A stretch of 64,000 bases of DNA. Origin: Bacteroidota bacterium. Lineage in GTDB: Bacteria; Bacteroidota; Ignavibacteria; Kapaibacteriales; NICIL-2. The stretch spans positions 1-64,000 of the forward strand of contig JAIBAE010000013.1 of assembly GCA_019695345.1 (NCBI GenBank). The letters run 5' to 3'. Under the pieces are notes generated by a model. The model saw nothing but the letters and a program-made list of their open reading frames with translations, made no database searches and was not told the DNA's origin. The position numbers and the translations under genes were made by a program. Positions within the stretch are counted from its first letter, which is position 1. Each line of letters begins with the position of its first letter. This document shows positions 3,856-58,364 of this stretch, in pieces.

Positions 3856-4534
3856 GCCGCGCCAATTCTTGCACGTGTAACACGGCGGCATCCGGCGGGA
3901 GAGAGAACGTAACGGTAAGAACAACCGTGAATCATACAGTTGTAATTTATTAATTGATTATAGAGGTTTATAATGAAGACAGTTTGGAAAAACATCACCG
4001 CCATTGCACTGATTACACTGTGTGTTCTGGCAGTTCAATCCATATATGCAGGCAAAACGCCACAACCACAGTTGCCAAAATTCCGACTCAATAAAACACA
4101 AAAGATTATCCCCGGTGCTACTGTTGAATTCTTAGGTATGGATGGTAAGAAACTTGGCAGTGGTACAACAAACGATAAAGGTACCGTTGAGATAAAACTA
4201 ACTCATCGCGGACCAATACAGGTAAAGGTATCAGCGCCCGGTGTTACAGATAAAGCTCTGGTGCAATTTACTGTTGCATCAAACTCACAATTCTACGACC
4301 CACGCCAACACACCGACCCAAAAGAAATTGCAGACACCACAAAGAAATATTCGTGGACGTATATCATACCTAACAAGATGGTATTTTTAATGCCACCAGT
4401 AGTAAATGATGCAACTGTTACCTGCACCGTTAAAACAGAACGTTAATACATGGGGATGCGGATAAAGCAATGGTTCTATCCCGCATGCACACGGTTTAGA
4501 AGCAGATGACAGTTGGTGCGGTCGGGCGATAGCA
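3850..4534. mobile_element. F1 paired-end element enclosing the 157-residue secreted protein gene
   Basis: The left end, TGCTAAGCCGCGCC (3850-3863), is followed by an inner box CGGGAGAGAGAA at about 3896. The right end, GGTGCGGTCGGGCGATAGCA (4515-4534), is preceded by TCTATCCCGC. The ends are inverted relative to each other and about 685 bp apart, with the gene 3973-4446 inside. The left end is a degenerate copy, so the pairing is inferred from order and orientation. The right end lies 20 bp before the selD start. Confidence 0.5.
3973..4446 (+). CDS. Small exported protein with carboxypeptidase-regulatory-like fold (unknown function)
   Basis: The 157-residue protein begins with a signal peptide (hydrophobic core IALITLCVLAVQS, probable cut after YAG). 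The stretch PGATVEFLGMDGKKLGSGTTNDKGTVEI resembles the beta-sandwich repeats of CarboxypepD_reg/Big-like domains, which often bind or present surfaces outside the cell. I do not recognise a specific family. It stands alone between two F1 ends. Confidence 0.6.
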   Translation: MKTVWKNITAIALITLCVLAVQSIYAGKTPQPQLPKFRLNKTQKIIPGATVEFLGMDGKKLGSGTTNDKGTVEIKLTHRGPIQVKVSAPGVTDKALVQFTVASNSQFYDPRQHTDPKEIADTTKKYSWTYIIPNKMVFLMPPVVNDATVTCTVKTER

Positions 4535-5631: not shown

Positions 5632-5638
5632 GGTTTAT

Positions 5639-5879
5639 GCTATCGCCCGACCGCACCGAACGCAGTGCTAATGAACAGCGTTGCATGGCGGATGAGAACA
5701 ACGTATCCATTGTAAATCTTATCGTGGTTCGTGTATTATAGTAGAGTATTGAATGCCTGAAGGTTAGATACTAACGTGTAAAATCACTATCACGTGTACG
5801 TTGTATTGCGAACAAGGAACTGAAACCGCGCTGAAGGTTGTTATGCAAGCAGTCCGTACGGAACGGACTGCGTTAGCAT
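5639..5879. repeat. F1 paired-end element, empty
   Basis: The left end TGCTATCGCCCGACCGCACC (5639-5658) starts 8 bp after the selD stop and is followed by GCGGATGAGA. The right end is weak (GGACTGCGTTAGCA, 5866-5879) but resembles the right end at 43597-43615. Just inside it is a 9-bp perfect hairpin, GCAGTCCGT/ACGGACTGC, at about 5850-5872. The ~240 bp interior carries no gene. Confidence 0.5.
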
Positions 5880-8440: not shown

Positions 8441-8666
8441 CTGCTGCCGCAGCGCGCCTAGTGGGCGGCAACTCAGTCCGCTCCGCGCGTTACAGCGTCG
8501 CTGTAGTGTGTTCAGGATGTATTTGTTATAAAGAATTACTATACACCTATCTGCTACCAAACCAGAAGATATATTGTAATGTTAAGATTGGATTCTTCTT
8601 GCGAAAGCAAAACGGCCGGCTCCGCCCGTGTGACGGCGCACTACGGGTTGCTACGGCAGATGCGGG
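8441..8666. repeat. F2 paired-end repeat between convergent genes
   Basis: The left part (CTGCTGCCGCAGCGCGCC, 8441-8458) and the right part (GGCTCCGCCCGTGTGACGGC ... TACGGCAGATGCGGG, 8620-8666) are roughly inverse of each other. They match F2 copies at 16091-16400 and 53850-54076. The element fills the gap between the convergent cytochrome and kinase genes and ends 17 bp from the kinase stop. A role as a bidirectional terminator is possible. Confidence 0.5.
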
Positions 8667-8683
8667 AACCACATTGTTCGTGC

Positions 8684-16090: not shown

Positions 16091-16400
16091 CACGTCCGAA
16101 GCAATCCTTCAGCGCGCCAACCCGGTGCGAACCGTACCTTCAGCGTCGCATATAATTACGAGTTACGTGCTCGTGTTTTATACAGTTGCTTTAGTTGTCA
16201 TTCTGAGCAACGCGAAGAATCTCTCTGATAGCTACGTATGATAGTAGAGACTCGTAATCACTTACCTCATGGGCGAATATCTATTCGCACCTATGTACTT
16301 GTACTGTAATGATTGTGATTTCGTAATTAAAAACCGTGCCGCTGCAACGGTTGGCTCCGCCTGTGTGACGGCGCACAAGGCGTGCTTCGGCAGAGGCGGG
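16091..16400. repeat. F2 paired-end repeat with inner small repeats
   Basis: The gap 15947-16422 has no supported gene. The left half (TCCGAAGCAATCCTTCAGCG onward, 16094-16136) shares most of its length with 53857-53900. The right half (16341-16400) ends GCTTCGGCAGAGGCGGG, 22 bp from the stop of the next kinase. Between them lie GTCATTCTGAGCAACGCGAA at about 16197, resembling a motif I know as dispersed in many genomes of this group, and a GGCGAATA/TATTCGC hairpin at 16272-16287 that recurs at 53934-53951. Confidence 0.55.
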
Positions 16401-16422
16401 GAGCAACATTGGTATGATATAA

Positions 16423-29212: not shown

Positions 29213-30028
29213 ATGAATAAAAAGCAAAGGAAACAATTGCTAATTCCCAGTTTCAAAGAGAATACGAATATTGGAGGCTTTCATGAAGAAGATGGTATAT
29301 TTTCTTTCAAAGATCCAAAAGGAAAGATAATAATTCCTACATCTATGTTTGTTGCTGAAACTTATCTAAAGAACAATGGAAAATTTAAAGTACTTTCACA
29401 AATACCAACAAGAAATGAAAGAATAAACTTAAATACCTTTCAGAATAATTTGAATTATGATTGGCTACTAGTAATTGATACAAACTCAAAAGAGTATAAT
29501 GGAAAAAAAATATCAGTTTCATGCTCAGCTTTTTTTACTATATCTTTGGATGAACCTAAAAAAAACAAAGGAAGTTGGGAACAAAGTTGGGAAATATCAT
29601 TCCAGTTGTTAGATGCGTTTATTGCAATTAATCCAAAAATAAACCCTGAGATACTTGGTTGGCTGATAATCATAGATTGGGTATTAAAAGCAAAACGCTT
29701 CAAAAAGTCTTACAAAGTGGGTATAATTGTAGATAGCCTTTTAGACAAAATCCCTAATATTAATCGCAGAAAGGAAACAATTATTGAGAACTATTTTTTA
29801 CCCCCCAATTTTGAATTAATTTATGCCAGTTCGGATGTTGGGAAGGATAACCCAAATAACAAAATGATAACAATCTGTGATAGAATGGCAAATAAAGTTT
29901 GGGAGTATATTTTGAAAAACCCAGAAGTATTAAATAATAATCTTGAAAATATTGATAATCATATGGATGCATCAACAATTGTTGATGCAAACACGGTTTA
30001 TAACATTTATAAAACTCACTATCTTTAA
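29213..30028 (+). CDS. Unknown protein in AT-rich island (possible RNase H-like fold)
   Basis: I do not recognise this 271-residue protein. It has no signal peptide or membrane segment. Visible elements are a strand with LLVIDTNSKEYNG (acidic residue at the strand end), a Trp-rich helical stretch (WEQSWEISFQLLDAF), a strand YKVGIIVDSLLD, and FELIYASSDVGKDNPNNKMITICDRMA. Acidic residues at strand ends plus a late 'D..Np....cD..A' pattern recall DUF3800-type RNase H-like proteins, but this is a weak resemblance. It lies 374 bp after the AbiC-like gene on the same strand, so a joint defence role is possible but unproven. Confidence 0.6.
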   Translation: MNKKQRKQLLIPSFKENTNIGGFHEEDGIFSFKDPKGKIIIPTSMFVAETYLKNNGKFKVLSQIPTRNERINLNTFQNNLNYDWLLVIDTNSKEYNGKKISVSCSAFFTISLDEPKKNKGSWEQSWEISFQLLDAFIAINPKINPEILGWLIIIDWVLKAKRFKKSYKVGIIVDSLLDKIPNINRRKETIIENYFLPPNFELIYASSDVGKDNPNNKMITICDRMANKVWEYILKNPEVLNNNLENIDNHMDASTIVDANTVYNIYKTHYL

Positions 30029-32970: not shown

Positions 32971-33921
32971 TGCTATCGCAAACCGCACCAAACGCTACAT
33001 CAATGCAAACCGTTACCCTGCGGGAAAGTACCGCACCAAACAAACACCGTTGTTCGTGATAGCTGTGTTGGTTATGTTTGTGGAGGAGAGAGTGAATGTA
33101 TTTTTATAAGGCATTCTGCCAAATCAATTGGCATGAAGAACTTTGCTTAACACATACCGTGATAATAAAGACCACTACTAATTATGCAAATAAGAATCCT
33201 ATATAACATTCTGATACTTCTAATAATAGGAACAGGTCAATGTCTTGCGCAATCCAAAGACTCGATAACAAACGAAATTACAATACGATGCCAAAAAATT
33301 GATAGCCTTCGTTCATACTACGAGATTACTATGAAGGATTACGACGATGGCTCGGTACTTGGAGGCCAAGTAACAACAGTATACGATGAAAAGAGTGTCA
33401 GATTGATTGAATTATATACGGAGTCAAGAAACATCAGATACTATTTCGAAAATGAGCAACTAATCTATGCAGTTGAAACTAAAACAATCCGCAAAAATCA
33501 AACAAACATAGATAGTTCCAAAGTAAACGGATTAGGCGATAGTTTGAATATTGATAATTACAATTCAAATACAATACAAGATCTCTATTTCTTCAAAGAC
33601 CAAAAGTTAATCAACTACATTGTTCACGAAGAAAAAGAATATGATAGGCTCTTTAGCAAAGATTCTCAGATAAAAAAAGCTATGATAGAAGCTACTGCAG
33701 AAAGAATGAAATCAGAGGCTTATAAGCTTAAGGAAAAGTACAAAAACTAAAAGGCACCAGCTATACATCGGCTTCAGACTATGCAGACACAATGTAAGCC
33801 CGAAGCCGTTACCATTAGTTATTTACCCACACGATAACCATTCTTTTGTGTATACGATTCTCATCCGCAAGATTCGGGTGGGGTGTACCATCAGTTGCAT
33901 GGGTGCCGTCACGCGATAGCA
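32971..33921. mobile_element. F1 paired-end element enclosing the 188-residue secreted protein gene
   Basis: The left end is TGCTATCGCAAACCGCACC (32971-32989), the right end GGTGCCGTCACGCGATAGCA (33902-33921). The first ~120 bp inside match 37072-37195 closely (both carry AAACGCTACAT/CAAACCGTTACCCTGCGG, AACACCGTTGTTCGTGATA and GTTGGTTATGTTTGTGG). The last ~90 bp match 37349-37436 (CACGATAACCATTCTTTTGTG, TCTCATCCGCA). The element is thus the filled form of the 37052-37436 element, with a gene placed in the middle. Confidence 0.65.
33184..33750 (+). CDS. Small exported protein, unknown, cargo of F1 element
   Basis: The 188-residue protein has a signal peptide (NILILLIIGTGQCLAQ, cut near LAQ-S). 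The mature part alternates charged helices and beta strands (SVRLIELYTESRNIRYYFENEQLIYAVETKTI) and ends in a basic, helical tail. No family was recognised. A+T content is higher than in flanking genes. It lacks a clear promoter inside the element. Confidence 0.6.
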   Translation: MQIRILYNILILLIIGTGQCLAQSKDSITNEITIRCQKIDSLRSYYEITMKDYDDGSVLGGQVTTVYDEKSVRLIELYTESRNIRYYFENEQLIYAVETKTIRKNQTNIDSSKVNGLGDSLNIDNYNSNTIQDLYFFKDQKLINYIVHEEKEYDRLFSKDSQIKKAMIEATAERMKSEAYKLKEKYKN

Positions 33922-33941
33922 AAAACATGCGTTACGCTATA

Positions 33942-36923
33942 TCAGTATTTGAATGTAGTTCGCACAAATAGTTTTTTACCTGTTTTTAGTTTCCAGTCCG
34001 ATTGCAGTTTGCCCTCTGCTGAATACGTAGCAACATAAAAATCGGTGATAACACCCGAGGCATCGGTGGGCGATTCGTAGTTCCACGCAAAATCTGAGGA
34101 CACTTTGTAATAGTTTGCTAAGGGTACATTTGATACCGAAATTTTCATGATGACTTTTCCGTAGCTGTTCGTCCTTGTATATGTTCCGCTTTGAATTGTT
34201 TTACCATCGGATGCAAGTGTTACCGATACAGTAATAGTTGAACCATCGCCCGGAACAGGTGCCGACCATATATATCCGGTTCCGGTTTTTGTTAAAGTGT
34301 TTGATGGCGAGACTGACGGAACAAGTGATTCGGTGAAGTTGTAATCGTTTACCCATGTACTGATAGGTTTTCCGTTAGCATCGTAACCGGTGTATGTGCA
34401 GTTTGCAATACCCGACCAATATCCTATGTACATTGTAGATGCACGTTGCAATAATGTAAAGATGTCTTTAGGAAGTGAACGCCAGTATGGTTTTGTTGTA
34501 GCATCATAACGGTTTACCTCATCAATAGCTGCTTTAAACAGATACACATATTGTTGTCCATCGTAATAATCAGGGACAACACATTCAATTTTTGTATCCG
34601 TCCAGGTTTGTATTTGGGGCACCAACGAGTCGCCAAATCGTATTGTATCTCCGGACATCTTAACGCCAAACCCTTTTCCATTTATAGTCATCAGTGTGTT
34701 TTTGGTAACGGTGTCGGGGCTGATAGAAGTAATCTCACATTTTACAAGATTGAAATCCCACGAACCAAGCCATGTGTAGGACATAGTAGATGAATTGTAC
34801 AACCGCACTTTAATTTTGTAGTTACCATATACAGAACTCCAACTTGAGTTATTAATGATAGCTTCTATTCGTGTATCAGACCAATAGCGGCTGTGTATTG
34901 CTCTGTAGTTATGATTATCTACATCGTTAGGGTGGTGAAGTGTTACTTCATCGCCGTCGCGTTGAATGTTACCAAAACCACTACCTGTGATAACAATTAC
35001 TTGACCGTTAGGTCCCGATGTTGGGTACATAGAACCGGCCCCTATTATTTCTGCGTTGGCGGAGTCTTTGGAAAGTTGGAGATGAGAGGTTGCATCAAAC
35101 AGAGTGGTGCGAATAGTAAATGTACCGGACTTTGTATAGGTATGTTTGGCGTAGTTGATATTATCGGTACGTTGTTCGGAGGTACCATCGCCAAAATTCC
35201 ATTTCAGATAATACTTCAATTCTTTTGGGATGCTATCGGTAGTTATATTCCATGTATATTCTTTGTTCTCGTCACCTTTCATGTTCTTGGGTATTATTTT
35301 GAAAGGATAGTTTTTGTAATACACTGTTATCCACTTAAAGTCTATAAAACTGACATCTTTTGTAGTTCCTTTTTCTCCTTCCACTAAAACACCAAGTTTG
35401 TTCTCGCCTGCGCTCAGTTGTACCCTGTATAAACCACTTCCTTCGTTTACTTGTATAGTATTGCCGGCAGTGTTAAATACCGTTGTAAGTATTCTGCGTT
35501 TACCGTCAACATTCCATCCCCACTGGGCAGTTGGGCAATCGGTATAGAGGCGTAATGTATCGGAGTTTGATACAAATCCATCGGTTAACTGGGCATCGGG
35601 GGTACTTTTGTTGTACAGTGTATAAGCAGGAAATATACCATTACCAATTGTGCCATTTAGTAACTCGGTATACCGTGATTCAATCTTGCTCCAATCAATA
35701 AGCGATGTTTTTGCCATTGGCGTAATAAACGGGAATTCACTTGATGCAGCATTCCCATTTAGTTTGGATTGATATGGTTTAAAATGGTCGTTTATCAACT
35801 CTATACTTTGAGCATTGTTTGGTGTGTTAGGGTCTGATATTAATATTTTCTTTTCGTTCATAGATACACCATAACATACAATTGCATGCCCGGCATATTT
35901 GGGTTTGTTATCATCATCAACACCATCTTGGTAGGCAATCGAAATATATAATGGTTCGTGAGTAACATACAACGCACCTGCAGTAGTTAAGAATTTGATT
36001 TTATCAAGGTTTGTATCAAGCCGCACGGTGTTGCGCATAAATCCTGTAAAAAGGGACTGCGGTAACAAGTCTTTCTGTAATACGGAACTAAATCTGTAGC
36101 CACGTGCATTATCCTGCCATAGGTTTGGATTATCGCTAAACTTGTTAAAGAGCTTTTCTCCTGTTTTCGATTTCTTCTCGTACCAATACCACATTGCTCC
36201 AATGCTTTGCCCAGCACAATGCCCACCAGGTGCTACATACGAACCCCAGTTTACAAACTCCCAATCGTCCACACCAACGGCAAAGCCCGTGGTTATGGTT
36301 CCTGCTGCATTAAGCAAAGATTCCTTTAACGAGCTTACAAAGAACGATGAATACTCTTCTAAACCTTGTACTTTGGAACCAATCAACTTCGCCGCACCTT
36401 GGGGGTGTATTACCGATGTTGCAAAGTGGCGTGTCAGTGCAGTTACCGAGGTAGCGTTATAATACTGAACAATCATTGGTTCAAGTTTACCGGTTTGCTC
36501 GTCGTAGATAAACACCAACGGAATCTCGCCTTGCGGCAGGGTAATCGGAATTTTCACTTCATATATGCCATCGGCATAGCCACCCGAACTTGTTACACGG
36601 ATAAGCGGCGTTATTGGGTTAACATTTGTACCAAACTTGTGGCTTTTAATCTCAAACGATGTTACCGTAAACGGTCTGGCATTGGTGTATGCACCGGTGG
36701 GAATAGTAATAGTCATCCCGTTTAACACATTCCCGGGTTTGTTTATGGTAACAACCGAACCTGCATTTTGTTGTGTTTGGTTAAGTTGTGTTTCCGTACC
36801 CAGTTCTAATTTGTTTTCAACCGGAGTTACCGGATTATTGGTATCGGGGCATCCGGCAAATAACAACCCTAAAAGCACTATTGCTACAAACTGTGCTTTC
36901 CATTGTACACCTGTTGTTCTCAT
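33942..36923 (-). CDS. Large lipoprotein with papain-like peptidase, PKD and IPT/TIG domains
   Basis: The 993-residue protein has a lipoprotein signal (FVAIVLLGLLFAGC, Cys25). The region 230-365 has GGHCAGQSIGAMWYW, GHAIVCYG and SDPNTP, a Cys-His-Asp order typical of papain-like (C39-type) peptidases. A PKD-like domain follows at about 575-612 (LKWNFGDGT, HTYTKSGTF), then two IPT/TIG domains (MYPTSGPNGQVIVITGSGFG and ITSISPDTVTKNTLMTINGKGFG). The C-terminal ~180 residues are beta-rich. A surface-anchored peptidase is inferred. I use the ATG at 36923, which gives the signal; the frame extends to 36989. Confidence 0.75.
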   Translation of the reverse strand: MRTTGVQWKAQFVAIVLLGLLFAGCPDTNNPVTPVENKLELGTETQLNQTQQNAGSVVTINKPGNVLNGMTITIPTGAYTNARPFTVTSFEIKSHKFGTNVNPITPLIRVTSSGGYADGIYEVKIPITLPQGEIPLVFIYDEQTGKLEPMIVQYYNATSVTALTRHFATSVIHPQGAAKLIGSKVQGLEEYSSFFVSSLKESLLNAAGTITTGFAVGVDDWEFVNWGSYVAPGGHCAGQSIGAMWYWYEKKSKTGEKLFNKFSDNPNLWQDNARGYRFSSVLQKDLLPQSLFTGFMRNTVRLDTNLDKIKFLTTAGALYVTHEPLYISIAYQDGVDDDNKPKYAGHAIVCYGVSMNEKKILISDPNTPNNAQSIELINDHFKPYQSKLNGNAASSEFPFITPMAKTSLIDWSKIESRYTELLNGTIGNGIFPAYTLYNKSTPDAQLTDGFVSNSDTLRLYTDCPTAQWGWNVDGKRRILTTVFNTAGNTIQVNEGSGLYRVQLSAGENKLGVLVEGEKGTTKDVSFIDFKWITVYYKNYPFKIIPKNMKGDENKEYTWNITTDSIPKELKYYLKWNFGDGTSEQRTDNINYAKHTYTKSGTFTIRTTLFDATSHLQLSKDSANAEIIGAGSMYPTSGPNGQVIVITGSGFGNIQRDGDEVTLHHPNDVDNHNYRAIHSRYWSDTRIEAIINNSSWSSVYGNYKIKVRLYNSSTMSYTWLGSWDFNLVKCEITSISPDTVTKNTLMTINGKGFGVKMSGDTIRFGDSLVPQIQTWTDTKIECVVPDYYDGQQYVYLFKAAIDEVNRYDATTKPYWRSLPKDIFTLLQRASTMYIGYWSGIANCTYTGYDANGKPISTWVNDYNFTESLVPSVSPSNTLTKTGTGYIWSAPVPGDGSTITVSVTLASDGKTIQSGTYTRTNSYGKVIMKISVSNVPLANYYKVSSDFAWNYESPTDASGVITDFYVATYSAEGKLQSDWKLKTGKKLFVRTTFKY

Positions 36924-37051
36924 TGCAATCCCTTTTTCTGTAGTGGGTAAGTCTATCTTCTTTTCCGAACCGAACATACGGTAGTACACAACACCATACT
37001 ATGACATTTATCAGGTTTTGAAAAGGTAGTGAATAATAATAGAAATGGTTC

Positions 37052-37436
37052 TGCTATCGCACGTCCGCACCAAACCACATTGTATGCAAACCGTTACCCT
37101 GCGGCAGAAAGTACCACAACCAACAAACACCGTTGTTCGTGATAAATGTGTTGGTTATGTTTGTGGGGAAAAGTGAATGTATTTTATAAGGTATAAGATG
37201 CTTCGCTTAGCTCATGCCCCGACATTAAAAATAGTAAGGCGTGTCAGGAGACACTTCGTTTAACTCCTGACACAACAGTATATAGACTTTTGTGCTCTGA
37301 GTGCCGCCCGAAGGTAAACCTGCGAACTATTCCTATCAACTATTCCTTCACGATAACCATTCTTTTGTGCATACGGTTCTCATCCGCAGAGTGCGGGTAT
37401 GTTGTGTTTGTAGCCGGGTGCGGTCGGGCGATAGCA
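37052..37436. repeat. F1 paired-end element, empty form
   Basis: TGCTATCGCACGTCCGCACC (37052-37071) and GGTGCGGTCGGGCGATAGCA (37417-37436) bound 385 bp without a gene. Inside, GTGTCAGGAG/CTCCTGACAC at about 37242-37272 form a further hairpin. Both flanks match the filled element 32971-33921. The gap 36924-37508 holds this element and little else. Confidence 0.65.
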
Positions 37437-40500: not shown

Positions 40501-41474
40501 CGGAAACACCGTGGGAAATTGGTGGTGGTTTACCCGGACAAGGTGGAAACTACCGCGGGTTAATGGAAGAGCTCCGCATATACAACCGTACTTTTACTAC
40601 AACCGAAATTCGTCAGGCAATGCATCTAACCGAACGCGGGAATAACCCATCGTTAGTTGCATACTACCAATTTAACGAGAGTACAGTCGCACGCTTTTAC
40701 AACCGTACAGGCGCAGTACACGCAACCAATGGCGGCGGAACATTAGTGCAATCAACTGCTCCGGTTGCATTTGGTGTATCGGATATAGCAACAAAAACAA
40801 ACCAAGGGTGGAACTTTCCAAATGTTGGATTACAACTTCATTCCACTAAAGAAAGTGATACCACCAAACGTGTGCTTGGCGCGTACCGATTATTTGCCGA
40901 GCCAGATACAATACCAAGCGTAGCCGGTGCGCAACGCAATACAAACAGTTATTGGATAGTGCGCAGTTGGTGGAATAACAAACCGTTACTAACCGATTCT
41001 CTCATCTTTACCGGAATAGGAACGATGTCTGCCAAGGATGCGTCATCACCAAATAACTTTGTAATAAGCAAACGCGCCATAGCAAACGAACACCGTAAAA
41101 CATGGTTTACGCAATCGCCAATCCGTGTAGATAGTGCGTATCAGCTTGTTGCAATGGGCACCGATACAAATGTGGTTGGTCAGTACATTATTACAACACT
41201 GGGTAACTCACCCCTTGGAGTTGAAGAAACAAGTACTACATCTCCAATACAATTGCTACCAAACCCTGCCGGAAATACGGTAACGGTGTTTATTAATATC
41301 AACACTCCTGTTACGGTGCGTATTATTAATAATCTGGGGCAGGTTGTAGCAACCGAGCAATGCTCAACATCACTGCTTACACTTAATACATCGGCATTAC
41401 CAAACGGAGCGTATACCGTGCATATAGAAAGCGGTAAACAATATTATACAGAGAAGTTGATTCTGCTTCGCTAA
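37509..41474 (+). CDS. T9SS-exported BNR-repeat, PKD and LamG-like surface protein
   Basis: The 1321-residue protein opens with a signal peptide (MRYVLLFVICSCVSVAQ). Residues ~155-740 carry about nine BNR/sortilin-like propeller blades (GLFKTTNKGKQW, GIIRTGDGGVTW, LFRSTNGGVQW, ILRSDDSGETW, IWKSTDAGKTW and others). A PKD domain (~784-857) and a LamG/concanavalin-like domain (~870-1045, with VHVAISIDTNKVTLYMNG) follow. The last ~75 residues are a Por/T9SS sorting domain (LLPNPAGNTVTVFI ... LPNGAYTVHIESG ... EKLILLR). It would be exported by the type IX system. Its stop codon lies inside the left end of an F1 element. Confidence 0.9.
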   Translation: MRYVLLFVICSCVSVAQLVSPLSVPPPTDSMPSWCVHLYKQPLNVLALDSAYNHYYATHEFVKNNYTRYYKRLIKVAQQYLTADGIVRPITQRDVMRPEQKSTALQAPTAAQWKAIGPHETYGTPGANGLGALCPWQANIYAFDIAPSNPNILYAMGETGGLFKTTNKGKQWIQLETGVNSSSEAVCVHPTNPDVCFIGVRGGIIRTGDGGVTWASAWKLQDVWVYDIKINAANTQIILAGTNKGLFRSTNGGVQWQKILNGAVCDVKMNPANNNECYALQNNQFTLRYEFWKSTDAGATFSLKPNGWLNNIGSNGGGRMAVTPADAKRIYVVLLSDTASTPFILRSDDSGETWITAVVGRTLQLTMDNGQGYYDLGIAASHTNADGVIVGTQTTYRSTDGGKNFTALGGYSGPFPIHPDLQDIKCFGSDTWIATDGGVTLSTDFFADTKNAEARTVGLNGADFWGFDCGWNEDVLVGGRYHNGNTAWHENYSTKFYRMGGGEAATGYVNPIENRRMYFSDIGSYTISNDVNGKIVSNTVSKYPNESYYAMEYSTMVWDPRCYNIVWIGKGNTLWRSTNGAQSYDSIFASPDKGAMMEHIVIARSNPNYMYVTQRSNDLRDGKIWKSTDAGKTWRAVNDPPVTSGSERRVSNIAVSYTNEKELWLAYRAGSRSNKVFHSVNGGDTWINLTTSMVEEETSSDIIHQAGTNGGVYLACDRGKIFYRNNTMSDWVLHGSGLPYAHFTRALKPFYRDNKLRNGSSMGIWEVPLYEHSKPIAQPSVDKFTTACERDTFYFDDYSVLERAHAQWQWSFPGAVYVSDSTARNPKVLYGKEGIYPVSLTVKNDYGTDTYTNDSFIEVRTLECGIDSVANKALSLSASNDVATIPPLPALKNAKGFTATMWLKLDSIQYSFSQLLSNWASDVGFSFGFSFQGYKQNTNLTFYWKNVPYQLTSAFNLPIGDWVHVAISIDTNKVTLYMNGEPWEYKNTNANFKDFNLSETPWEIGGGLPGQGGNYRGLMEELRIYNRTFTTTEIRQAMHLTERGNNPSLVAYYQFNESTVARFYNRTGAVHATNGGGTLVQSTAPVAFGVSDIATKTNQGWNFPNVGLQLHSTKESDTTKRVLGAYRLFAEPDTIPSVAGAQRNTNSYWIVRSWWNNKPLLTDSLIFTGIGTMSAKDASSPNNFVISKRAIANEHRKTWFTQSPIRVDSAYQLVAMGTDTNVVGQYIITTLGNSPLGVEETSTTSPIQLLPNPAGNTVTVFININTPVTVRIINNLGQVVATEQCSTSLLTLNTSALPNGAYTVHIESGKQYYTEKLILLR

Positions 41475-41792
41475 GCCGCACTGTATGTTGTGCACAACAT
41501 AACGTCTTGCAGCGGGATAGAGAATCTCTATTGTATTCACAACGGTTATCGTGGATGAGAATGTACCGCAAGCCAATACTGAGAGTTTTCTCGCAAGGTG
41601 CGCAAGGATACGGTCAAAAAATGGCGCGCAAAGTAAACATATAGTACTTAAGCTTCTCTCTGTGCAACTCTGTGAAGAACATTGTGAACTCTGTGGGAAT
41701 ATCTTTATATCAACGTAGTGTTTACCACCAAGATCTCTCCCGCACAGCAAGGTTTGTTTGTGCTAAAGGTGCGGTGCGGTCGGGCGATAGCA
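41464..41792. repeat. F1 paired-end element, empty, overlapping the stop of the preceding gene
   Basis: The left end TGCTTCGCTAAGCCGCAC (41464-41481) contains the TAA stop of the BNR protein. The right end GGTGCGGTCGGGCGATAGCA (41773-41792) is 6 bp from the next gene's stop (41798). The interior (about 41512-41770) matches 50780-51035 over most of its length, including GTTATCGTGGATGAGAATGTA, CTCGCAAGGTGCGCAAGG, GGCGCGCAAAGTAAA and CTCTGTGAA...CTCTGTG. Confidence 0.65.
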
Positions 41793-41797
41793 ACAAC

Positions 41798-43695: not shown

Positions 43696-46600
43696 ATGAA
43701 TTCCAACATTGTGTTTCATCAAGTTCCATCTTTACGTATTGCGTTTGCCCTTGTAATAATTATTACGAGTGTATCTGTACGTACCGTAGATGTATTTGGG
43801 CAAACAAACCCAGCACCACAGGCATTGCCTTATAGCCAGAACTTCAGTTCGGGTTTTGCGCATAATACTGCAACGTATCCTGCCGGTTGGCAGGGCTGGG
43901 ATATTGCCAATTCATTCCCAAGTACGTTTTCTACAACATCGCCGGTTGCAAATTTTAATTTACGTATTACCGGTTCGGCCTCCAGCACCATTGGCGGCGT
44001 GCATAATTACAATGGGAAAATTGGATTTATGGCAGCAGATACATCCGAGGACCCGTCATTGTGCTTAGCATTAAATACTACGGGGTCATCGGGCGTTACG
44101 TTAACGTTTTCGGTGATGACTATTCGCAACCCGTACGATGGAAGTTCGAACACAAGAATTAATCAGGTTGATATCCAGTATCGTGTAGGAACCTCGGGAG
44201 CGTTTACATCTATTACCGGTGCATCAGGTGGTATTTATGAGAATAATACAACAACACAAATAGGGTCGGGCGTAACTACACCACAAAACAATCAAAACGT
44301 TTGTTTGGTGTTGCCATCGGCTTGCGATAATCAGGCAGTAGTTCAACTGCGTTGGGTTCAGAGAGATGTAAGTGGCACAGGAGGCAGACCAAGTTTTGCT
44401 ATAGATAATGTTTCGCTGTGTTCGGGTACAGTTTGCTCGCAAGGAAATGATGAGTGTTGCGGAGCAATATCGCTAACTGTTGGAAGTTCATGCTCGCCCT
44501 CAACGTATTCTAATGTAGGTGCTTCTGCATCATCAACAGTAGCCAATCCGAGTTGTGGTTTTTACCAAGGTGGAGATGTGTGGTTTTCTGCTGTGGTACC
44601 AACATCGGGTAATATGAGAATAGAAGTTAATGGTGTTTCGGGTATTAATGCACAGTGGGCAATGTATACTGGGTCGTGTTCATCGCTTACGCAGTATTCG
44701 TGTAATCAAAGCGATGCCGCAAACACAGTATCTGATGCTTCGCTATCGGGGCAAACAGTATACATTAGAGTATGGAACTTTAATAGTGCATCGGGCGGAG
44801 TATTTAATATTTGTGTGTGGGAACCATCTATACCAACTCATAACAATTGTGCTAATGCTTCTATGCTTACGGTTGGTAGTTCATGTTCCATGAGTTCGTT
44901 TACCAATGCGTATGCAACGGCAGAAGCAACATCGGTATCACCAAATCCATCGTGCGGGTTTTATGCAGGTGGCGATGTATGGCACACATGTGTTATGCCT
45001 GCTTCGGGTAAACTCAGAATAGAACGAACAAATGGTACTGCAAATGCACAGATTACGTTGTATCAGGGAACATGCGGCTCCATGACGGAGCTTATGTGTA
45101 TGCAACTTGATGGAGACCGTACATACTACAACCCTTCGCTTGCGGGACAAACCTTGTACATAAGAGTTTATAATTTTAATAATGAAGATGGTGGAACATA
45201 TAACATTTGTGTATGGGAGCCACCTATGCCATCGCACAATTTTTGTGCTAACGCGGCACCGTTAACAGTAGGTGCATCATGCTCAATGAGTTCATTTAGC
45301 AATGCATACGCCACTGCCGAGGCTACATCGGTATCGCCAAATCCTTCGTGTGGATTTTATGCCGGTGGTGATGTGTGGCATACATTTGTTATGCCTGCCT
45401 CGGGGAAACTCAGGATTGAACGCACAAACGGTACTGCTAATGCGCAGATTGCAGTGTACCAGGGAACGTGTGGCTCGATGAGTGAAGTTTTGTGTATGCA
45501 ACTTGATGCAGATAGAACATATTTCAATCCTTCGCTTGCCGGACAAACGTTGTATCTACGTGTATATAATTATAACAACGAAGAAGGTGGAACATATAGT
45601 ATTTGTTTGTGGGAGCCAACTATGCCGGCACATGACCTGTGTGCCAATGCTATTCCACTAACCGTAGGTTCAACATGTTCAATGAGTTCGTTTACAAATG
45701 CGTATGCATTAGCGGAAGCAACATCGGTATCGCCAAATCCAACGTGTGGGTTTTATGCTGGTGGCGATGTGTGGCATACATTTGTTATGCCTACATCGGG
45801 TAAACTTAGAGTAGAGCGTACAAATGGAACTGCTAACGCACAGATTGCAGTGTACCAGGGGACGTGTGGTTCGATGTCGCAATTATTCTGTATGCAACTA
45901 GATGGTGACCGAACTTACTACAATCCTTCGTTGGCCGGACAAACATTGTATATGCGAGTATATAATTATAACAACGAAGAAGGAGGCACATATAGCGTGT
46001 GTGTTTGGGAACCGCCCATACCGGTAAATGATAATTGTGCAAATGCAATCCCAGTAACTGTTGGCGGAACATGTTCAATGATTTCTTCAACGAATGCGTA
46101 CGCCACGTCAGAGTCAACATCTATTGCGCCAAACCCGTCGTGTGGATTTTATTCCGGTGGCGATATATGGTATAAACTAATAATGCCAACCACAGGTAAT
46201 CTGAAGATTGATAGAACAAACAGTGCAGGTGCTAATGCACAATGGGCTATGTACACAGGCACATGCGGTTCGTTCTCACAAATAGTATGCGCTCAGTTAA
46301 CCAGCAGCACAACACTGGCAAATGCATCACTTGCCGGACAAACACTGTACCTTCGATTTTTTAGTTATAGTAGTGAAGAAGGGGGAGCATTTACTTTTTG
46401 TGCTTACGACCCAACATGTACAGCACCAACATTTACAACGTGCTCTTCTACTATAAACGATAACACCGGTAGTTCTGGCGGATGCTCTAAAGTTGAAACA
46501 TACACGGTATCTGCAACGGGTTCTCCAACTCCAACGTACTCATATAGCTTCAGCGGGGCTACCACCGGAAGTGGTACCGGAACGGGAAGTGGTTCCACCT

Positions 46601-49600
46601 TTAATGTTGGAACTACCGCTGTCGCAGTATCGGCAACTAATAGTTGTGGTACTACTACTTGTACATTTAATGTTGTACTTAATGATACTCAAAATCCAAC
46701 TATAACCTGCCCGGGTAATCAGAGTTATAATACTGTTCCGGGAGATTGCCATGCAGTATTGTTGTCGCTTGGTAATCCTATAACTTCGGATAACTGTGGA
46801 ATAGCCTCGATTGTTACAAATCACCCATCTACTATATATCCATTAGGGACTACTACAGTGCTATGGACGGTAACTGACGTAAATGGGAACACAGCAACAT
46901 GTAACCAAACAATTACAATTACAGATACTCATCTTCCTACTATTATTTGTCCCGATGATATCAATGTAAATGTTGATGCTGGAACATGTAATGCAACAGG
47001 TGTATCTTTGGGAACACCAACTACATCAGATAATTGTGGTGTAGCTACGATAGTAAATAATCACCCATCTACAACATACCCTGTTGGAACAACCACCGTA
47101 GTGTGGACGGTAACAGATGTAAATGGCAATTCTTCTACGTGTAATCAAGTTGTAACGGTTACTGATAATATAGCTCCAAGTATAACGTGTCCAACAAATA
47201 TTACCGTGAATAATACTACAGGATTGTGTGGCGCAATTGTGTCTCCATTAGGCACACCAACCACATCCGATAACTGCGGTGTACAATCTGTTACTAATAA
47301 TCACATCTTTTCAACGTATCCTTTAGGTACTACAACAGTTATTTGGACGGTAACAGATGTAAACGGCAATACTTCAACCTGTAATCAAACAGTAACAGTA
47401 GTAGATGCACAGAATCCAACTATAACCTGTCCATCTAACATTAGTGTATATGCAGCAATAGGAAGTTGTAGCGCTGAGGTAAGTACATTAGGTACACCAA
47501 CTACATCTGATAACTGCGGTGTGGCAAGTGTAGTGAATAATCACTCATCAACAAGTTATCCGGTAGGAACAACCACCGTAGTGTGGACGGTAACAGATGT
47601 AAATGGCAATACGGCAACCTGTAACCAAGCGGTAACAGTAACAGATAATCAAAACCCAACTATTACCTGTCCATCCGATATAACTATCAATGCCGATGCC
47701 GGTCAATGCGGTGCTGTTGTAAGTACCTTAGGTACACCAACCACATCCGATAACTGCGGTGTGGCAAGTGTAGTGAATAATCACCCATCAACAAGTTATC
47801 CGGTGGGAACAACCACCGTAGTGTGGACGGTAACAGATGTAAATGGCAATACGGCAACCTGTAACCAAACAGTAACAGTAACAGACAATCAAAACCCAAC
47901 TATTACCTGTCCATCCGATATAACTATCAATGCCGATGCCGGTCAATGCGGTGCTGTTGTAAGTACCTTAGGTACACCAACCACATCCGATAACTGCGGT
48001 GTGGCAAGTGTAGTGAATAATCACCCATCAACAAGTTATCCGGTGGGAACAACCACCGTAGTGTGGACGGTAACAGATGTAAATGGCAATACGGCAACCT
48101 GTAACCAAACAGTAACAGTAACAGACAATCAAAACCCAACTATTACCTGTCCATCCGATATTACTATCAATGCCGATGCTGGTCAATGCGGTGCTGTTGT
48201 AAGTACATTAGGCACGCCAACTACATCCGATAACTGCGGTGTGGCAAGTGTAGTGAATAATCACTCATCAACAAGTTATCCGGTAGGTACAACTACAGTA
48301 GTGTGGACGGTAACGGATGTGAATGGTAACACAGCTACTTGTAATCAAACGGTAACAGTAACAGACAATCAAAACCCAACTATTACCTGTCCATCCGATA
48401 TAACTATCAATGCCGATGCCGGTCAATGCGGTGCTGTTGTAAGTACCTTAGGCACACCAACTACATCCGATAACTGCGGTGTGGCAAGTGTCGTGAACAA
48501 TCACTCATCAACAAGTTATCCGGTAGGAATAACCACCGTAGTGTGGACGGTAACAGATGTAAATGGCAATACAGCAACCTGTAACCAAACAGTAACAGTA
48601 ACAGATAATCAAAACCCAACTATTACATGCCCATCTAACATTAGCGTAAATGCAGCAACAGGAAGTTGTAGCGCAACCGTTAGTACGCTTGGCACACCAA
48701 CCACATCCGATAATTGTGGTGTAGCAAGTGTAACAAATAATTATTCATCTTCTGTATATCTTGTAGGTGTAACCACAGTAGTGTGGACAGTAACAGACGT
48801 AAATGGCAATACGGCAACTTGTAATCAAACAGTAACAGTAACAGATAATCAAAACCCAACTATTACTTGTCCAACCAATATCAGTGTAAATGCTGCGACA
48901 GGAAGTTGTAGTGCAACCGTTAGTATGCTTGGTACACCAACTACATCCGATAACTGCGGTGTAGCAAGTGTAACAAATAATCATTCGTCTGCTAGTTACC
49001 CAGTTGGTACAACAACGGTATTATGGACAGTGACAGATATGCATGGTAACACAGCAATCTGTAATCAAACAGTAACAGTAACAGATAATCAAAACCCAAC
49101 TATTACATGCCCTTCAAACATTACAGCAACGGCAACAAGTAGCGCCGGTGCCGTGGTAAACTACACTACACCGATTGGAACGGACAACTGTTCTGGAGCT
49201 ACAACTGTACGTACAGCAGGTTATGCAAGTGGCTCAACATTCCCAATCGGAACAACCACGGTTACACACACGGCAACTGATGCTTCGGGTAACATTAGTT
49301 CTTGCTCGTTTACAGTAACTGTTGTTACAACAGGAACGGCCCCAACTGTTACCTGTCCGGGAACTATTACGGTAAACAATACAACTGGTTCATGTTCTGC
49401 AAATGTTACGTACACTGTATCTGCAACAGGAACTCCAACACCAACTATTACATATAGCAAAGCATCAGGAAGTTCCTTTAACGTTGGAACCACAGCAGTA
49501 ACTGTAACTGCAACAAATTCATCAGGTACTGCTTCGTGTACGTTTAACGTGGTTGTTCACGATAACCAACAACCAAGTATAACAGCACCAAGTAACATCG

Positions 49601-50628
49601 AATTCTGCTTTGGCCAGTATAATAATGGTTGTAGTGTTAGTTTAGGTACGCCATCAACCTCAGATAATTGCGGGGTAGCTTCGGTAACAAACAATGCGCC
49701 TTCGTGCTTTAATGTAGGTACAACAACAGTAACATGGACGGTAACCGACACCCACGGCAACACAAAAACTGCAATACAAACAGTGCGCAGAAATGCCAAA
49801 CTAAAATTAAAAGTATGTGCAACTCCGGCACGCCGAATTGTTCGTGGTACATATCAAAATGTCGGACCACTTGGGCCTCAATCCATACCGTTAACAACAA
49901 CGGTTACAGGTGGAACACCGGGTTACTCTTATTCATGGTCACCTTCAACCGGATTAAGCAGTACAACGGCAGCAAATCCATCAGCAAGCCCCAATACAAC
50001 AACAACATACACGGTAACCGTAACCGACTCCAAAGGATGTACAATTTCTAAGTCAATAACCATTGTAGTTGTTCAACTTTCTAGTATTGTATGCCAGACA
50101 GGTAATAACTGGAAAGTAAAAGTATGTCATCATCCATCAAACGATGACGACGAAGATGATGACGGACAGCAACTATGCGTGTCGTACAATGCACTCTCAG
50201 CACACATTAACAATGGAAACGGACATAGTGGATGTTACCTTGGCGAGTGTATGGAACATCGTTGCAGTGGTGGTAACGATGATGATGACGATGACGACGG
50301 AGATGATGACGATGATGATAACGACAAAGCAGTTGCGCAGGATGAAATTAATAATATTTCTACCGATCACGCTTTTGTACAATATCATCCAAATCCTGCA
50401 AACTCAGTTGCACTGTTTAAAGTAATGGTGCCCGAAGCAGGAAGATGTAAACTCGAAATCCTTGATGCACGCGGTATAACCATATCGGAAATGTTCGATG
50501 GAATGATACAACGCAATCAGGAACTCAATATCGAATTTGATGTTTCCATGTTGCCCGATGGCTTATACTTCTACCGTTTAACATCAGCAAACGAAACCAT
50601 AACAGGCAAGCTTATCGTGTTGCATTAA
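43696..50628 (+). CDS. Giant T9SS-exported HYR-repeat adhesin-like protein
   Basis: The 2310-residue protein has an N-terminal signal region (residues ~15-36, AFALVIIITSVSVRTVDVFGQ). A jelly-roll-like domain (~45-245) and five PPC-like repeats of ~132 residues (~250-905; GDVWHTFVMPASGKLRI, SLAGQTLYIRVYN) follow. Then come about twelve HYR domains of 80 residues (~996-1990; PTITCPSDIT, TSDNCGVASV, VVWTVTDVNGN) and a PKD-like segment (SYSWSPSTGLSST). A CHxP-type Cys domain is interrupted by Asp tracts (~2140-2215), and a T9SS sorting domain ends the protein. HYR domains are Ig-like and typical of adhesion. Long and repetitive, it probably forms a cell-surface fibre; its ligand is unknown. Confidence 0.92.
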   Translation: MNSNIVFHQVPSLRIAFALVIIITSVSVRTVDVFGQTNPAPQALPYSQNFSSGFAHNTATYPAGWQGWDIANSFPSTFSTTSPVANFNLRITGSASSTIGGVHNYNGKIGFMAADTSEDPSLCLALNTTGSSGVTLTFSVMTIRNPYDGSSNTRINQVDIQYRVGTSGAFTSITGASGGIYENNTTTQIGSGVTTPQNNQNVCLVLPSACDNQAVVQLRWVQRDVSGTGGRPSFAIDNVSLCSGTVCSQGNDECCGAISLTVGSSCSPSTYSNVGASASSTVANPSCGFYQGGDVWFSAVVPTSGNMRIEVNGVSGINAQWAMYTGSCSSLTQYSCNQSDAANTVSDASLSGQTVYIRVWNFNSASGGVFNICVWEPSIPTHNNCANASMLTVGSSCSMSSFTNAYATAEATSVSPNPSCGFYAGGDVWHTCVMPASGKLRIERTNGTANAQITLYQGTCGSMTELMCMQLDGDRTYYNPSLAGQTLYIRVYNFNNEDGGTYNICVWEPPMPSHNFCANAAPLTVGASCSMSSFSNAYATAEATSVSPNPSCGFYAGGDVWHTFVMPASGKLRIERTNGTANAQIAVYQGTCGSMSEVLCMQLDADRTYFNPSLAGQTLYLRVYNYNNEEGGTYSICLWEPTMPAHDLCANAIPLTVGSTCSMSSFTNAYALAEATSVSPNPTCGFYAGGDVWHTFVMPTSGKLRVERTNGTANAQIAVYQGTCGSMSQLFCMQLDGDRTYYNPSLAGQTLYMRVYNYNNEEGGTYSVCVWEPPIPVNDNCANAIPVTVGGTCSMISSTNAYATSESTSIAPNPSCGFYSGGDIWYKLIMPTTGNLKIDRTNSAGANAQWAMYTGTCGSFSQIVCAQLTSSTTLANASLAGQTLYLRFFSYSSEEGGAFTFCAYDPTCTAPTFTTCSSTINDNTGSSGGCSKVETYTVSATGSPTPTYSYSFSGATTGSGTGTGSGSTFNVGTTAVAVSATNSCGTTTCTFNVVLNDTQNPTITCPGNQSYNTVPGDCHAVLLSLGNPITSDNCGIASIVTNHPSTIYPLGTTTVLWTVTDVNGNTATCNQTITITDTHLPTIICPDDINVNVDAGTCNATGVSLGTPTTSDNCGVATIVNNHPSTTYPVGTTTVVWTVTDVNGNSSTCNQVVTVTDNIAPSITCPTNITVNNTTGLCGAIVSPLGTPTTSDNCGVQSVTNNHIFSTYPLGTTTVIWTVTDVNGNTSTCNQTVTVVDAQNPTITCPSNISVYAAIGSCSAEVSTLGTPTTSDNCGVASVVNNHSSTSYPVGTTTVVWTVTDVNGNTATCNQAVTVTDNQNPTITCPSDITINADAGQCGAVVSTLGTPTTSDNCGVASVVNNHPSTSYPVGTTTVVWTVTDVNGNTATCNQTVTVTDNQNPTITCPSDITINADAGQCGAVVSTLGTPTTSDNCGVASVVNNHPSTSYPVGTTTVVWTVTDVNGNTATCNQTVTVTDNQNPTITCPSDITINADAGQCGAVVSTLGTPTTSDNCGVASVVNNHSSTSYPVGTTTVVWTVTDVNGNTATCNQTVTVTDNQNPTITCPSDITINADAGQCGAVVSTLGTPTTSDNCGVASVVNNHSSTSYPVGITTVVWTVTDVNGNTATCNQTVTVTDNQNPTITCPSNISVNAATGSCSATVSTLGTPTTSDNCGVASVTNNYSSSVYLVGVTTVVWTVTDVNGNTATCNQTVTVTDNQNPTITCPTNISVNAATGSCSATVSMLGTPTTSDNCGVASVTNNHSSASYPVGTTTVLWTVTDMHGNTAICNQTVTVTDNQNPTITCPSNITATATSSAGAVVNYTTPIGTDNCSGATTVRTAGYASGSTFPIGTTTVTHTATDASGNISSCSFTVTVVTTGTAPTVTCPGTITVNNTTGSCSANVTYTVSATGTPTPTITYSKASGSSFNVGTTAVTVTATNSSGTASCTFNVVVHDNQQPSITAPSNIEFCFGQYNNGCSVSLGTPSTSDNCGVASVTNNAPSCFNVGTTTVTWTVTDTHGNTKTAIQTVRRNAKLKLKVCATPARRIVRGTYQNVGPLGPQSIPLTTTVTGGTPGYSYSWSPSTGLSSTTAANPSASPNTTTTYTVTVTDSKGCTISKSITIVVVQLSSIVCQTGNNWKVKVCHHPSNDDDEDDDGQQLCVSYNALSAHINNGNGHSGCYLGECMEHRCSGGNDDDDDDDGDDDDDDNDKAVAQDEINNISTDHAFVQYHPNPANSVALFKVMVPEAGRCKLEILDARGITISEMFDGMIQRNQELNIEFDVSMLPDGLYFYRLTSANETITGKLIVLH
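44830..46413 (+). repeat. Four tandem 396-bp coding repeats (PPC-like domains)
   Basis: Units start at 44830, 45226, 45622 and 46018, exactly 396 bp (132 codons) apart, each opening (M/I)P-x-H/N-x-x-CANA. A more divergent unit precedes them at about 44437. They lie inside the HYR protein gene and keep frame. Confidence 0.9.
46681..49080 (+). repeat. Ten tandem 240-bp coding repeats (HYR domains)
   Basis: Ten units of exactly 240 bp (80 codons) run from 46681 to 49080. Units at 47641, 47881, 48121 and 48361 are nearly identical at DNA level; the outer units differ more. Pattern: ancient array with recent homogenisation or duplication at the centre. Copy number may vary between strains or be misassembled. 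Confidence 0.95.
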
Positions 50629-50721: not shown

Positions 50722-51058
50722 TGCTATCGCCTGACCGCACCAAGCATACTGTGCTACTAACAGCGTTATGTGTGCGGGAGAGAGAACTTGGCTGTATTTT
50801 CAACAGTTATCGTGGATGAGAATGTAACGCAAGTCAATACTGAGAATCTTCTCGCAAGGTGCGCAAGGTTACGGTCAAAAATGGCGCGCAAAGTAAAGTG
50901 AATATATGGTACGTAAGCTTCTCTCTGTGCAACTCTGTGAAGTACATTGTGAACTCTGTGAGAATATCTTCATTACCGTGTAGTATGTACTAACAAGGTT
51001 CTCTCCCGCACAGCAAGGTTTGTTTATGCTTTGGGTGCGGTGCGGTCAGGCGATAGCA
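50722..51058. repeat. F1 paired-end element, best-preserved copy
   Basis: The left end TGCTATCGCCTGACCGCACC (50722-50741) and the right end GGTGCGGTCAGGCGATAGCA (51039-51058) are perfect inverse complements. With three flanking T/A the match reaches 23 bp (50719-50741, 51039-51061). Inner boxes GCGGGAGAGAGAA (about 50777) and TTCTCTCCCGCA (51000) pair too. The interior matches 41512-41770. No gene lies in the gap 50629-51158. Confidence 0.8.
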
Positions 51059-51158
51059 AAAGATTAATACCCAACACTGTACATTAACATTATAAGCACG
51101 CAACATATCCTTGTTCTATCCGTTACACACACCATTCAATATTGAGAGATAGAATAGT

Positions 51159-53849: not shown

Positions 53850-54076
53850 CCCGCATCTGCCGAAGCAATCCTTCAGCGCGCCAACCCGGTGCGAACCAAA
53901 CGTTGTGCGGCGCATAGTTGCTGTTTTATTATTGGCGAATATCTATTCGCCCCTACGAACAGCATTGATTATTCATTCGTATTTCGTAATACCGTAATTC
54001 GTTATTGACTATTGCGCCGCTGAAGGTGCGGAGCGGACAGGGTTGCCGCGCACATCGAGCGTTTCGGCAGATGCGG
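53850..54076. repeat. F2 paired-end repeat between convergent genes
   Basis: The left half begins CCGCATCTGCCGAAGCAATC at 53851 and runs to about 53900. The right half (54015-54076) ends CGTTTCGGCAGATGCGG, inverse to the start. Between them is GGCGAATATCTATTCGCC (53934-53951), an 8-bp palindrome also at 16272. The element ends 7 bp from the stop of the TPR-LuxR gene. Confidence 0.6.
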
Positions 54077-58206: not shown

Positions 58207-58364
58207 TGCTATCGCAAGCCGCACCTAATCTCTCCTATAACACAACCTCCAACAGCGGGATAGTACAATCACATCACGGTAAAGCGTTTATCGTTACGTA
58301 CGGTTCTTACCGGACGTTTGAGGATATGTATAGCAGGTGGTATGGTGCCCGTCCGGCGATAGCA
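58207..58364. repeat. F1 paired-end element, shortest copy
   Basis: TGCTATCGCAAGCCGCACC (58207-58225) and GGTGCCCGTCCGGCGATAGC (58344-58363, then A) bound only 158 bp. The inner box AGCGGGATAGTAC is present at about 58253. No gene. It separates the ribosomal unit's terminator from the denitrification promoter. Confidence 0.65.

Follow-up and report, generated by a model that had tools for sequence, protein, structure and literature searches.

A short repeat family, F1, was identified in the stretch of 64,000 nucleotides analyzed here (the window) and throughout the genome from which it derives, and it is best explained, with a probability that we put at roughly 0.65, as a family of mobile elements, dispersed and non-autonomous, in which two arms of ~92 nt lie in inverted orientation, gene-free units copy locally and other arm pairs bracket AT-rich, probably foreign genes. 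What we observed directly comprises the repeat itself, its copy number, the geometry of the pairs, a covarying base pair, copies of whole elements, a contrast in GC content and gene length in two genera, and one orthologous arm pair that holds different genes.

Two F1 elements in the window, one with a gene and one without, lie 4 kb apart in one orientation. Their parts are listed below, where an arm that reads inward on the + strand is termed L, an arm that reads inward on the - strand is termed R, and scores in bits are those of the R1 covariance model.

32971..33114, + strand: left arm (L) of the gene-carrying element; R1 59.7 bits; 86% identity to 37052-37194
32971-33061, + strand: the 92-nt arm proper within this left arm; a second conserved block, short and hairpin-like, comes next
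33184..33750, + strand: cargo gene, 188 aa, GC 0.33; family search, nothing above cut-off; homolog search in 40 relatives, none found
33827..33921, - strand: right arm (R) of the gene-carrying element; R1 43.7 bits; 77% identity to 37349-37436
37052..37194, + strand: left arm (L) of the gene-free element; R1 58.7 bits
37241..37276, no strand assigned: unrelated palindromic repeat, GTGTCAGGAG...CTCCTGACAC, inside the gene-free element; ~8 further matches in the genome
37346..37436, - strand: right arm (R) of the gene-free element; R1 69.6 bits

The initial annotation had described 32971-33921 and 37052-37436 as filled and empty forms of one element that share their first ~120 bp and last ~90 bp around unrelated middles, and pairwise alignment bore this out. 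The left ends (32971-33114 and 37052-37194) were 86% identical in 148 columns, corresponding to ~144 bp with perhaps weak similarity beyond, and the right ends (33830-33921 and 37349-37436) were 77% identical in 92 columns, with identical order and identical strand; the two words quoted for the ends, AACACCGTTGTTCGTGATA and CACGATAACCATTCTTTTGTG, were located in both elements. Flanks that were not collinear, or similarity limited to the terminal 60 nt, would have refuted the claim, and neither was found, as the similarity past the first 60 nt of the left end scored 106 against a shuffle maximum of 27, and that ahead of the last 30 nt of the right end scored 70 against a maximum of 24 (1000 shuffles each). 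The middles showed no likeness above chance, with an alignment score of 22 that fell inside the shuffled range. The gene for a 188-residue protein is present at 33184-33750, but its description as secreted rests only on a hydrophobic N-terminus judged by eye. The shorter element is without a gene comparable to this one, and we call it gene-free rather than empty because a dispersed palindromic repeat sits at 37241-37276. Each left arm of the two elements has the other as its best match, with a clear lead (61 vs 42), and the right arms are likewise each other's best match, but only narrowly (46.5 vs 45.5), so that, also being 4 kb apart in the same orientation, the pair fits the pattern of local copies described below. 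The pair is best interpreted as one element in two local copies, only one of which holds a cargo gene. As for the further claim that F1 interiors can carry or lose cargo genes, the existence of gene-bearing and gene-free interiors was supported genome-wide, but the direction cannot be read from this pair, by which gain or loss of the gene is not shown.

The ends of F1 have TGCTATCGCnnGACnGCACC in common, which was matched 795 times with up to 2 mismatches in the source genome (4.56 Mb in 163 contigs), whereas the reversed pattern was matched 6 times. A profile search of sampled stretches totaling 1.44 Mb (32% of the genome) detected 463 arms, and none in the reversed sequence, which scales to ~1,450 arms per genome. 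The consensus of 74 aligned copies, ~92 nt in length, is TGCTATCGC-nn-GA-CCGCA-CC...loop...TGCGG-GAnAGAAC...GGTTATCGTG, in which the arm starts with TGCTATCGC and a 5-bp stem, CCGCA...TGCGG, encloses a variable loop of ~39 nt; a conserved 20-nt block at both ends of the element forms terminal inverted repeats. The stem pair of columns 15 and 61 was C-G in 41, G-C in 24 and U-A in 8 of the 74 arms, and no other covariation in the arm came close to it in strength (z = 45, the next being 6); this pair was complementary in 406 of 417 parsed arms, where 213 were expected. The covariation lies mainly in this one base pair, with the remaining stem pairs hardly varying, and the figures count sequences rather than independent events, of which few may underlie them. 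The folding energy of single arms was only slightly below that of shuffles (mean z of -0.9 and -0.7), so that stability alone gives no support for a hairpin. Arm subtypes differ in a spacer of 3 or 4 nt; because these combine freely, the possibility of two distinct end types was rejected. At variable positions, the two arms of one element resembled each other no more than expected. Searches of other collections, from which the source genome and near relatives may have been left out, yielded two matches among viruses and one in a genome collection, all read as chance, and no match among plasmids. Other palindromes, GGGGCGTATTGCATACGCCC, GTAGGGGGAATTCATGAATTCCCCCTAC and GGGCAGAAAATTTTCTGCCC, were seen in or near F1 arms (for example at L130:1060-1090, C41:70509 and C33:6418), and 15 of 16 matches to four such palindrome patterns lay within 300 bp of an arm edge.

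The arrangement of neighboring arms was highly ordered. All 76 neighbors spaced 120-400 bp apart were L-R, with no R-L, L-L or R-R pair, and among arms outside these short pairs, neighbors 700-1500 bp apart comprised 35 L-R, 14 R-L, 4 L-L and 7 R-R. The L-R spacing is thus bimodal, in that gene-free elements measure 120-400 bp whereas pairs 700-1500 bp apart form a second class with room for a gene. L-R intervals shorter than 5 kb make up ~11% of the sampled genome, and the arms are dispersed across all sampled contigs in both orientations without forming an array. They are mostly intergenic, with only 46 of 477 arm midpoints inside predicted ORFs against a coding fraction of 0.86 (gene calls were plain ORFs); 214 were on the start side and 256 on the stop side of a gene, and in 125 of these 256 the outer edge fell 0-10 nt past the stop codon. 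Many arms have no detected partner, although partners may have gone unseen because arms were found by similarity. Contigs of the assembly also often end near F1 arms (for example C148, C142, C92 and C33), so that assembly breaks may hide some element pairs. The other F1 arms and elements noted in the window are as follows (no strand is assigned to the pairs).

4446..4534, - strand: unpaired R arm, from the R1 covariance model
5638..5729, + strand: unpaired L arm, 7 nt past a stop codon
23560..23804: gene-free L-R pair, kin along its full length to elements on contig C142
26887..30233: L-R interval enclosing a 271-aa gene at 29213-30028 (no family match); R1 33.6 and 74.9 bits
41464..41792: gene-free L-R pair; identity of 41512-41793 to 50774-51059, 85%
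50722..51058: gene-free L-R pair, a local relative of 41464-41792 in the same orientation
58207..58364: gene-free L-R pair; R1 46.9 and 50.8 bits

The window also contains a second dispersed repeat family, GC-rich, with inverted arms and at first sight unrelated to F1 (1292-1353, 8606-8667, 16341-16402 and 53850-54076), and two long coding tandem repeats in large proteins, one of 396 bp in ~5 copies (44545-46415) and one of 240 bp in ~10 copies (46684-49784).

The genes enclosed by inward-facing arms differed from those between outward-facing arms. For intervals of 500-2500 bp, the L-R genes had a mean GC of 0.372 and a median length of 201 aa, whereas the R-L genes had a mean GC of 0.435 and a median length of 379 aa (p = 4e-17 for GC), and the contrast in GC was also found at 2.5-5 kb (0.358 vs 0.423) and above 5 kb (0.390 vs 0.414). 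In a Pfam search of 20 cargo proteins, 13 were without a match and the others were a GNAT acetyltransferase, two glyoxalase-like proteins, Imm26, DUF2461, DUF1761 and a Crp-like protein, whereas ten R-L control proteins were mostly housekeeping enzymes and transporters. The genes within L-R pairs are probably foreign in origin. The cargo proteins were nearly all unique within the sample, and no whole gene-carrying element was found in two copies in the sampled third of the genome; hence, joint movement of cargo and arms is not shown. A type IX secretion sorting domain was also present in the genome, which fits Bacteroidota and their neighbors.

Evidence for copying came from the gene-free elements, three pairs of which were 89-97% identical end to end, with the match stopping at the arm edges. 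Strongly similar arms cluster within 20 kb in the same orientation, and within 5 kb similar arms were found in 22 of 290 same-orientation pairs and in none of 349 opposite pairs, the background being 0.2%. Tandem gene duplication was rejected as the source of this local similarity, because none of 39 similar-arm pairs had homologous flanking genes. No excess of matching flanks, as expected of a target-site duplication, was seen in 138 elements. As judged by comparing copies, gene-free elements are thus copied as whole units, locally, in one orientation and without target-site duplication. Ends that matched on both sides over long stretches, around different interiors, were found in C41:46243-48104 and C41:114884-115711, in C41:65527-68288 and the gene-free element of the window pair, in C31:79863-81626 and its gene-carrying counterpart, and in C41:91923-92881 and an element on C84. 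The comparison included no strain-level relative, so that no single site was directly seen to gain or lose a gene.

The exact F1 pattern gave only one stray match, in a single genome, among 60 relatives. The covariance model, however, found diverged arms in one sister genus (G002), 85 in 756 kb and none in the reversed sequence, and found nothing in other genomes of the family and order. The sister genus exhibited the same contrast between enclosed genes, with a GC of 0.386 for 18 L-R genes and 0.531 for 15 R-L genes (p = 3e-6), and a homolog in the sample was found for 1 of the 18 and 10 of the 15, respectively. The initial annotation had proposed searching related genomes for other genes in the same inner position, and one such case was found, in which C41:104675-106294 and contig C377 of the sister genus represent an orthologous place, where the proteins on either side are 86% and 75% identical. 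At both ends arm sequence could be aligned, but the protein genes between the arms differed (138 and 237 aa vs 284 aa). A conserved stretch of ~280 nt in this place overlaps three tandem matches to Y RNA-like (YrlA) sequences, all below the gathering score, at C41 ~105675-106183 (L056:5675-6183) inside the L-R interval, which may represent a Ro/Y-RNA locus inside an F1 element. At six syntenic places with F1 in the source genome, the corresponding gap in the sister genome measured no more than 164 bp and no arms were detected in it, although some of the protein identities were low.

These results bear on the possibility, which we consider open but rather doubtful, that old L-R pairs are fixed sockets that stay put while foreign genes are inserted or lost between them, by homologous recombination between arms or by illegitimate insertion into a tolerated site. 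That orthologous arms enclose different genes in the two genera is what this would produce; the cargo of each element being unique and the accumulation of other palindromic repeats near arms are also consistent with it. However, gene-free elements do move as units, and the arm positions common to both genera (4 of 20, with ~5 expected by chance) are not above chance, for which reason shared positions were rejected as proof of fixed sockets. This alternative differs from our preferred reading mainly in the route by which cargo arrives.

For the window pair only, it is conceivable, but in our judgment unlikely, that two single arms came separately around a resident gene and became alike through gene conversion involving the complete element close by, in which case 32971-33921 is not one cargo element. 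Conversion predicts similar arms that are local and in the same orientation, as they generally are, and the right-arm match is the best only marginally. Against this, both the left arms, by their wide margin, and the right arms are mutual best matches, the order and orientation of the two elements match, and the 188-aa gene is AT-rich and an orphan, like cargo elsewhere.

According to the mechanism that we propose for a mobile F1 family, two ~92-nt arms in inverted orientation would constitute one non-autonomous element. Gene-free elements copy as units to nearby intergenic sites, often right behind a stop codon, with their orientation kept, and other arm pairs bracket one or a few AT-rich genes. 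It is inferred that cargo may enter or leave between the arms. The covarying stem, the inverted pairing and the absence of target duplications suggest recognition of a folded strand or a hairpin-containing site, so that the arms may be recognized in the folded state by an enzyme acting in trans. A more specific version, which we regard as an outside possibility, is a dispersed gene-cassette system without a platform, in which inverted hairpin sites, ~1,450 in number, would be recognized in folded form by an XerA/IntI-like recombinase that itself lies in such a cassette, giving an intergenic, AT-rich and changing gene pool.

The enzyme that moves F1 or its cargo is not identified; the search covered Y1 enzymes and tyrosine recombinases only, not all transposases. 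A tyrosine recombinase of 372 aa (C37:7625-8740) starts just inside an F1 arm, and its homolog in the sister genus, 49% identical, likewise lies just inside an arm of the type found there and adjoins a tyrosyl-tRNA synthetase gene. The recombinase scored 204 bits against the integron-integrase model TIGR02249 (cut-off 265), and the one model that it passed was that of the broader XerA/integrase family, NF040815. Close homologs within the taxonomic family are limited to the one in the sister genus, but across the order homologs 38-61% identical occur in a number of the 80 genomes searched, including some in which the arm model finds nothing, and in the one genome inspected, the homolog had no flanking arms. 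A recombinase confined to F1 genomes was accordingly rejected, leaving a weak association. Because of these homologs, and because accessory genes lie between arms anyway, this protein is only a candidate, and its identification as the F1 enzyme is speculative. Both intact Y1 genes of the source genome lie between F1 arms, one encoding a RAYT (81.9 bits against a cut-off of 80) and the other an IS200-type enzyme. RAYT/Y1 enzymes were rejected as the mobilizer on the grounds that accessory genes lie between arms anyway and that the sister genome (91% complete assembly) has arms without a Y1 gene, which makes a Y1 enzyme unlikely as a shared mobilizer. A degenerate Y1 transposase gene, interrupted by several stop codons, was also noted between an L and an R arm at G000:C53:24389-24763 (L059).

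It is improbable that the arms are merely boundary signals at the edges of core genes, pointing away from them (for example, for 3'-end processing or insulation), with the accessory genes between arms simply being without them. Such signals would predict the contrast between L-R and R-L genes equally well, and the intergenic position of the arms and the frequent placement of their outer edges directly past stop codons agree with them. However, arms abut gene starts too, L-R elements are copied whole, both arms together with the interior, between unrelated neighbors, and genomes of the same family, as well as syntenic gene pairs in the sister genus, do without arms. It is likewise improbable that F1 represents a normal REP/REPIN family dispersed by the RAYT or IS200-type Y1 transposase of the genome. 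Inverted intergenic hairpin pairs without target duplication and the two enzymes between arms agree with this, but accessory genes lie between arms in any case, the sister genome lacks a Y1 gene, and F1 arms are longer, with a shorter stem, than REPs and have no GTAG/GGAG tag in their consensus.

REPs, MITEs and similar dispersed short repeats are usually treated as gene-free, and mobile insertion cassettes, exemplified by MIC231, are said to carry passenger genes. As far as the accessible part of the source reports, REPINs/BIMEs are inverted REP doublets with a spacing of ~71-110 bp, for which no cargo is described there, and they resemble F1 in their hundreds of intergenic copies, in the inverted hairpin pair as the replicative unit and in the presence of singlets beside doublets (PMC3116915); the lack of a target duplication in F1 is also REPIN-like. 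F1 differs in its ~92-nt arms, 5-bp stem, ~39-nt loop and second class of pairs that enclose genes. It meets the REPIN criterion of an inverted hairpin pair at short intergenic spacing, with 76 L-R pairs at 120-400 bp, but fails those of a short palindrome with a 5' GTAG/GGAG tag, given its long loop and untagged consensus, and of a linked RAYT in all repeat-bearing genomes, since the RAYT of the source genome lies between F1 arms and the sister genus has no Y1 gene. MITEs, Correia elements (PMC2649163) and mobile insertion cassettes, among which MIC231 is listed as an element type (PMC6542083), are likewise short elements with inverted ends and no transposase of their own. F1 meets their criterion of terminal inverted repeats (the 20-nt block at both ends) but fails that of target-site duplication (138 elements), and it differs further in its covarying hairpin arms and in a much larger number of copies that carry genes, the gene differing from copy to copy.

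In the pdif modules of Acinetobacter, accessory genes are framed by sites of inverse orientation and the two orientations alternate, as in F1; the pdif sites themselves, which belong to XerC/XerD, are short and plasmid-borne (PMC13141974), whereas F1 arms are ~92 nt, chromosomal and present in ~1,450 copies, with many gene-free pairs. The conserved block was not visibly dif-like on inspection of the consensus, without a dif search. Integron cassettes and their attC sites (PMC8352920) resemble F1 in small, mostly unknown genes alongside acetyltransferase, glyoxalase and immunity-type genes, in a site kept by base pairing with a variable loop, and in the XerA/IntI-like recombinase of the F1 genome, but F1 arms lie on both sides of the cargo, inverted, and are dispersed rather than arrayed. 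The F1 arm has one well-paired box (98%) and one weaker, possible outer box (71%), and the RYYYAAC/GTTRRRY core was not visible in its consensus, which was inspected without an attC model. An integron was rejected, as no integrase exceeded the integron-integrase cut-off. Because the defining tests of each fail, F1 is not classed as a member of any of the families compared; by analogy, gene-free F1 may work most like a REPIN and gene-carrying F1 most like a pdif module.

A single repeat family thus divides the chromosome, with AT-rich accessory genes between inward-facing arms and core-like genes between outward-facing arms, in two genera whose arms have diverged. If this is confirmed, the arms would provide a rule, based on sequence only, for delimiting single-gene acquisitions in this lineage, and the family would offer a tractable system for studying the way in which a repeat without genes begins to carry them.
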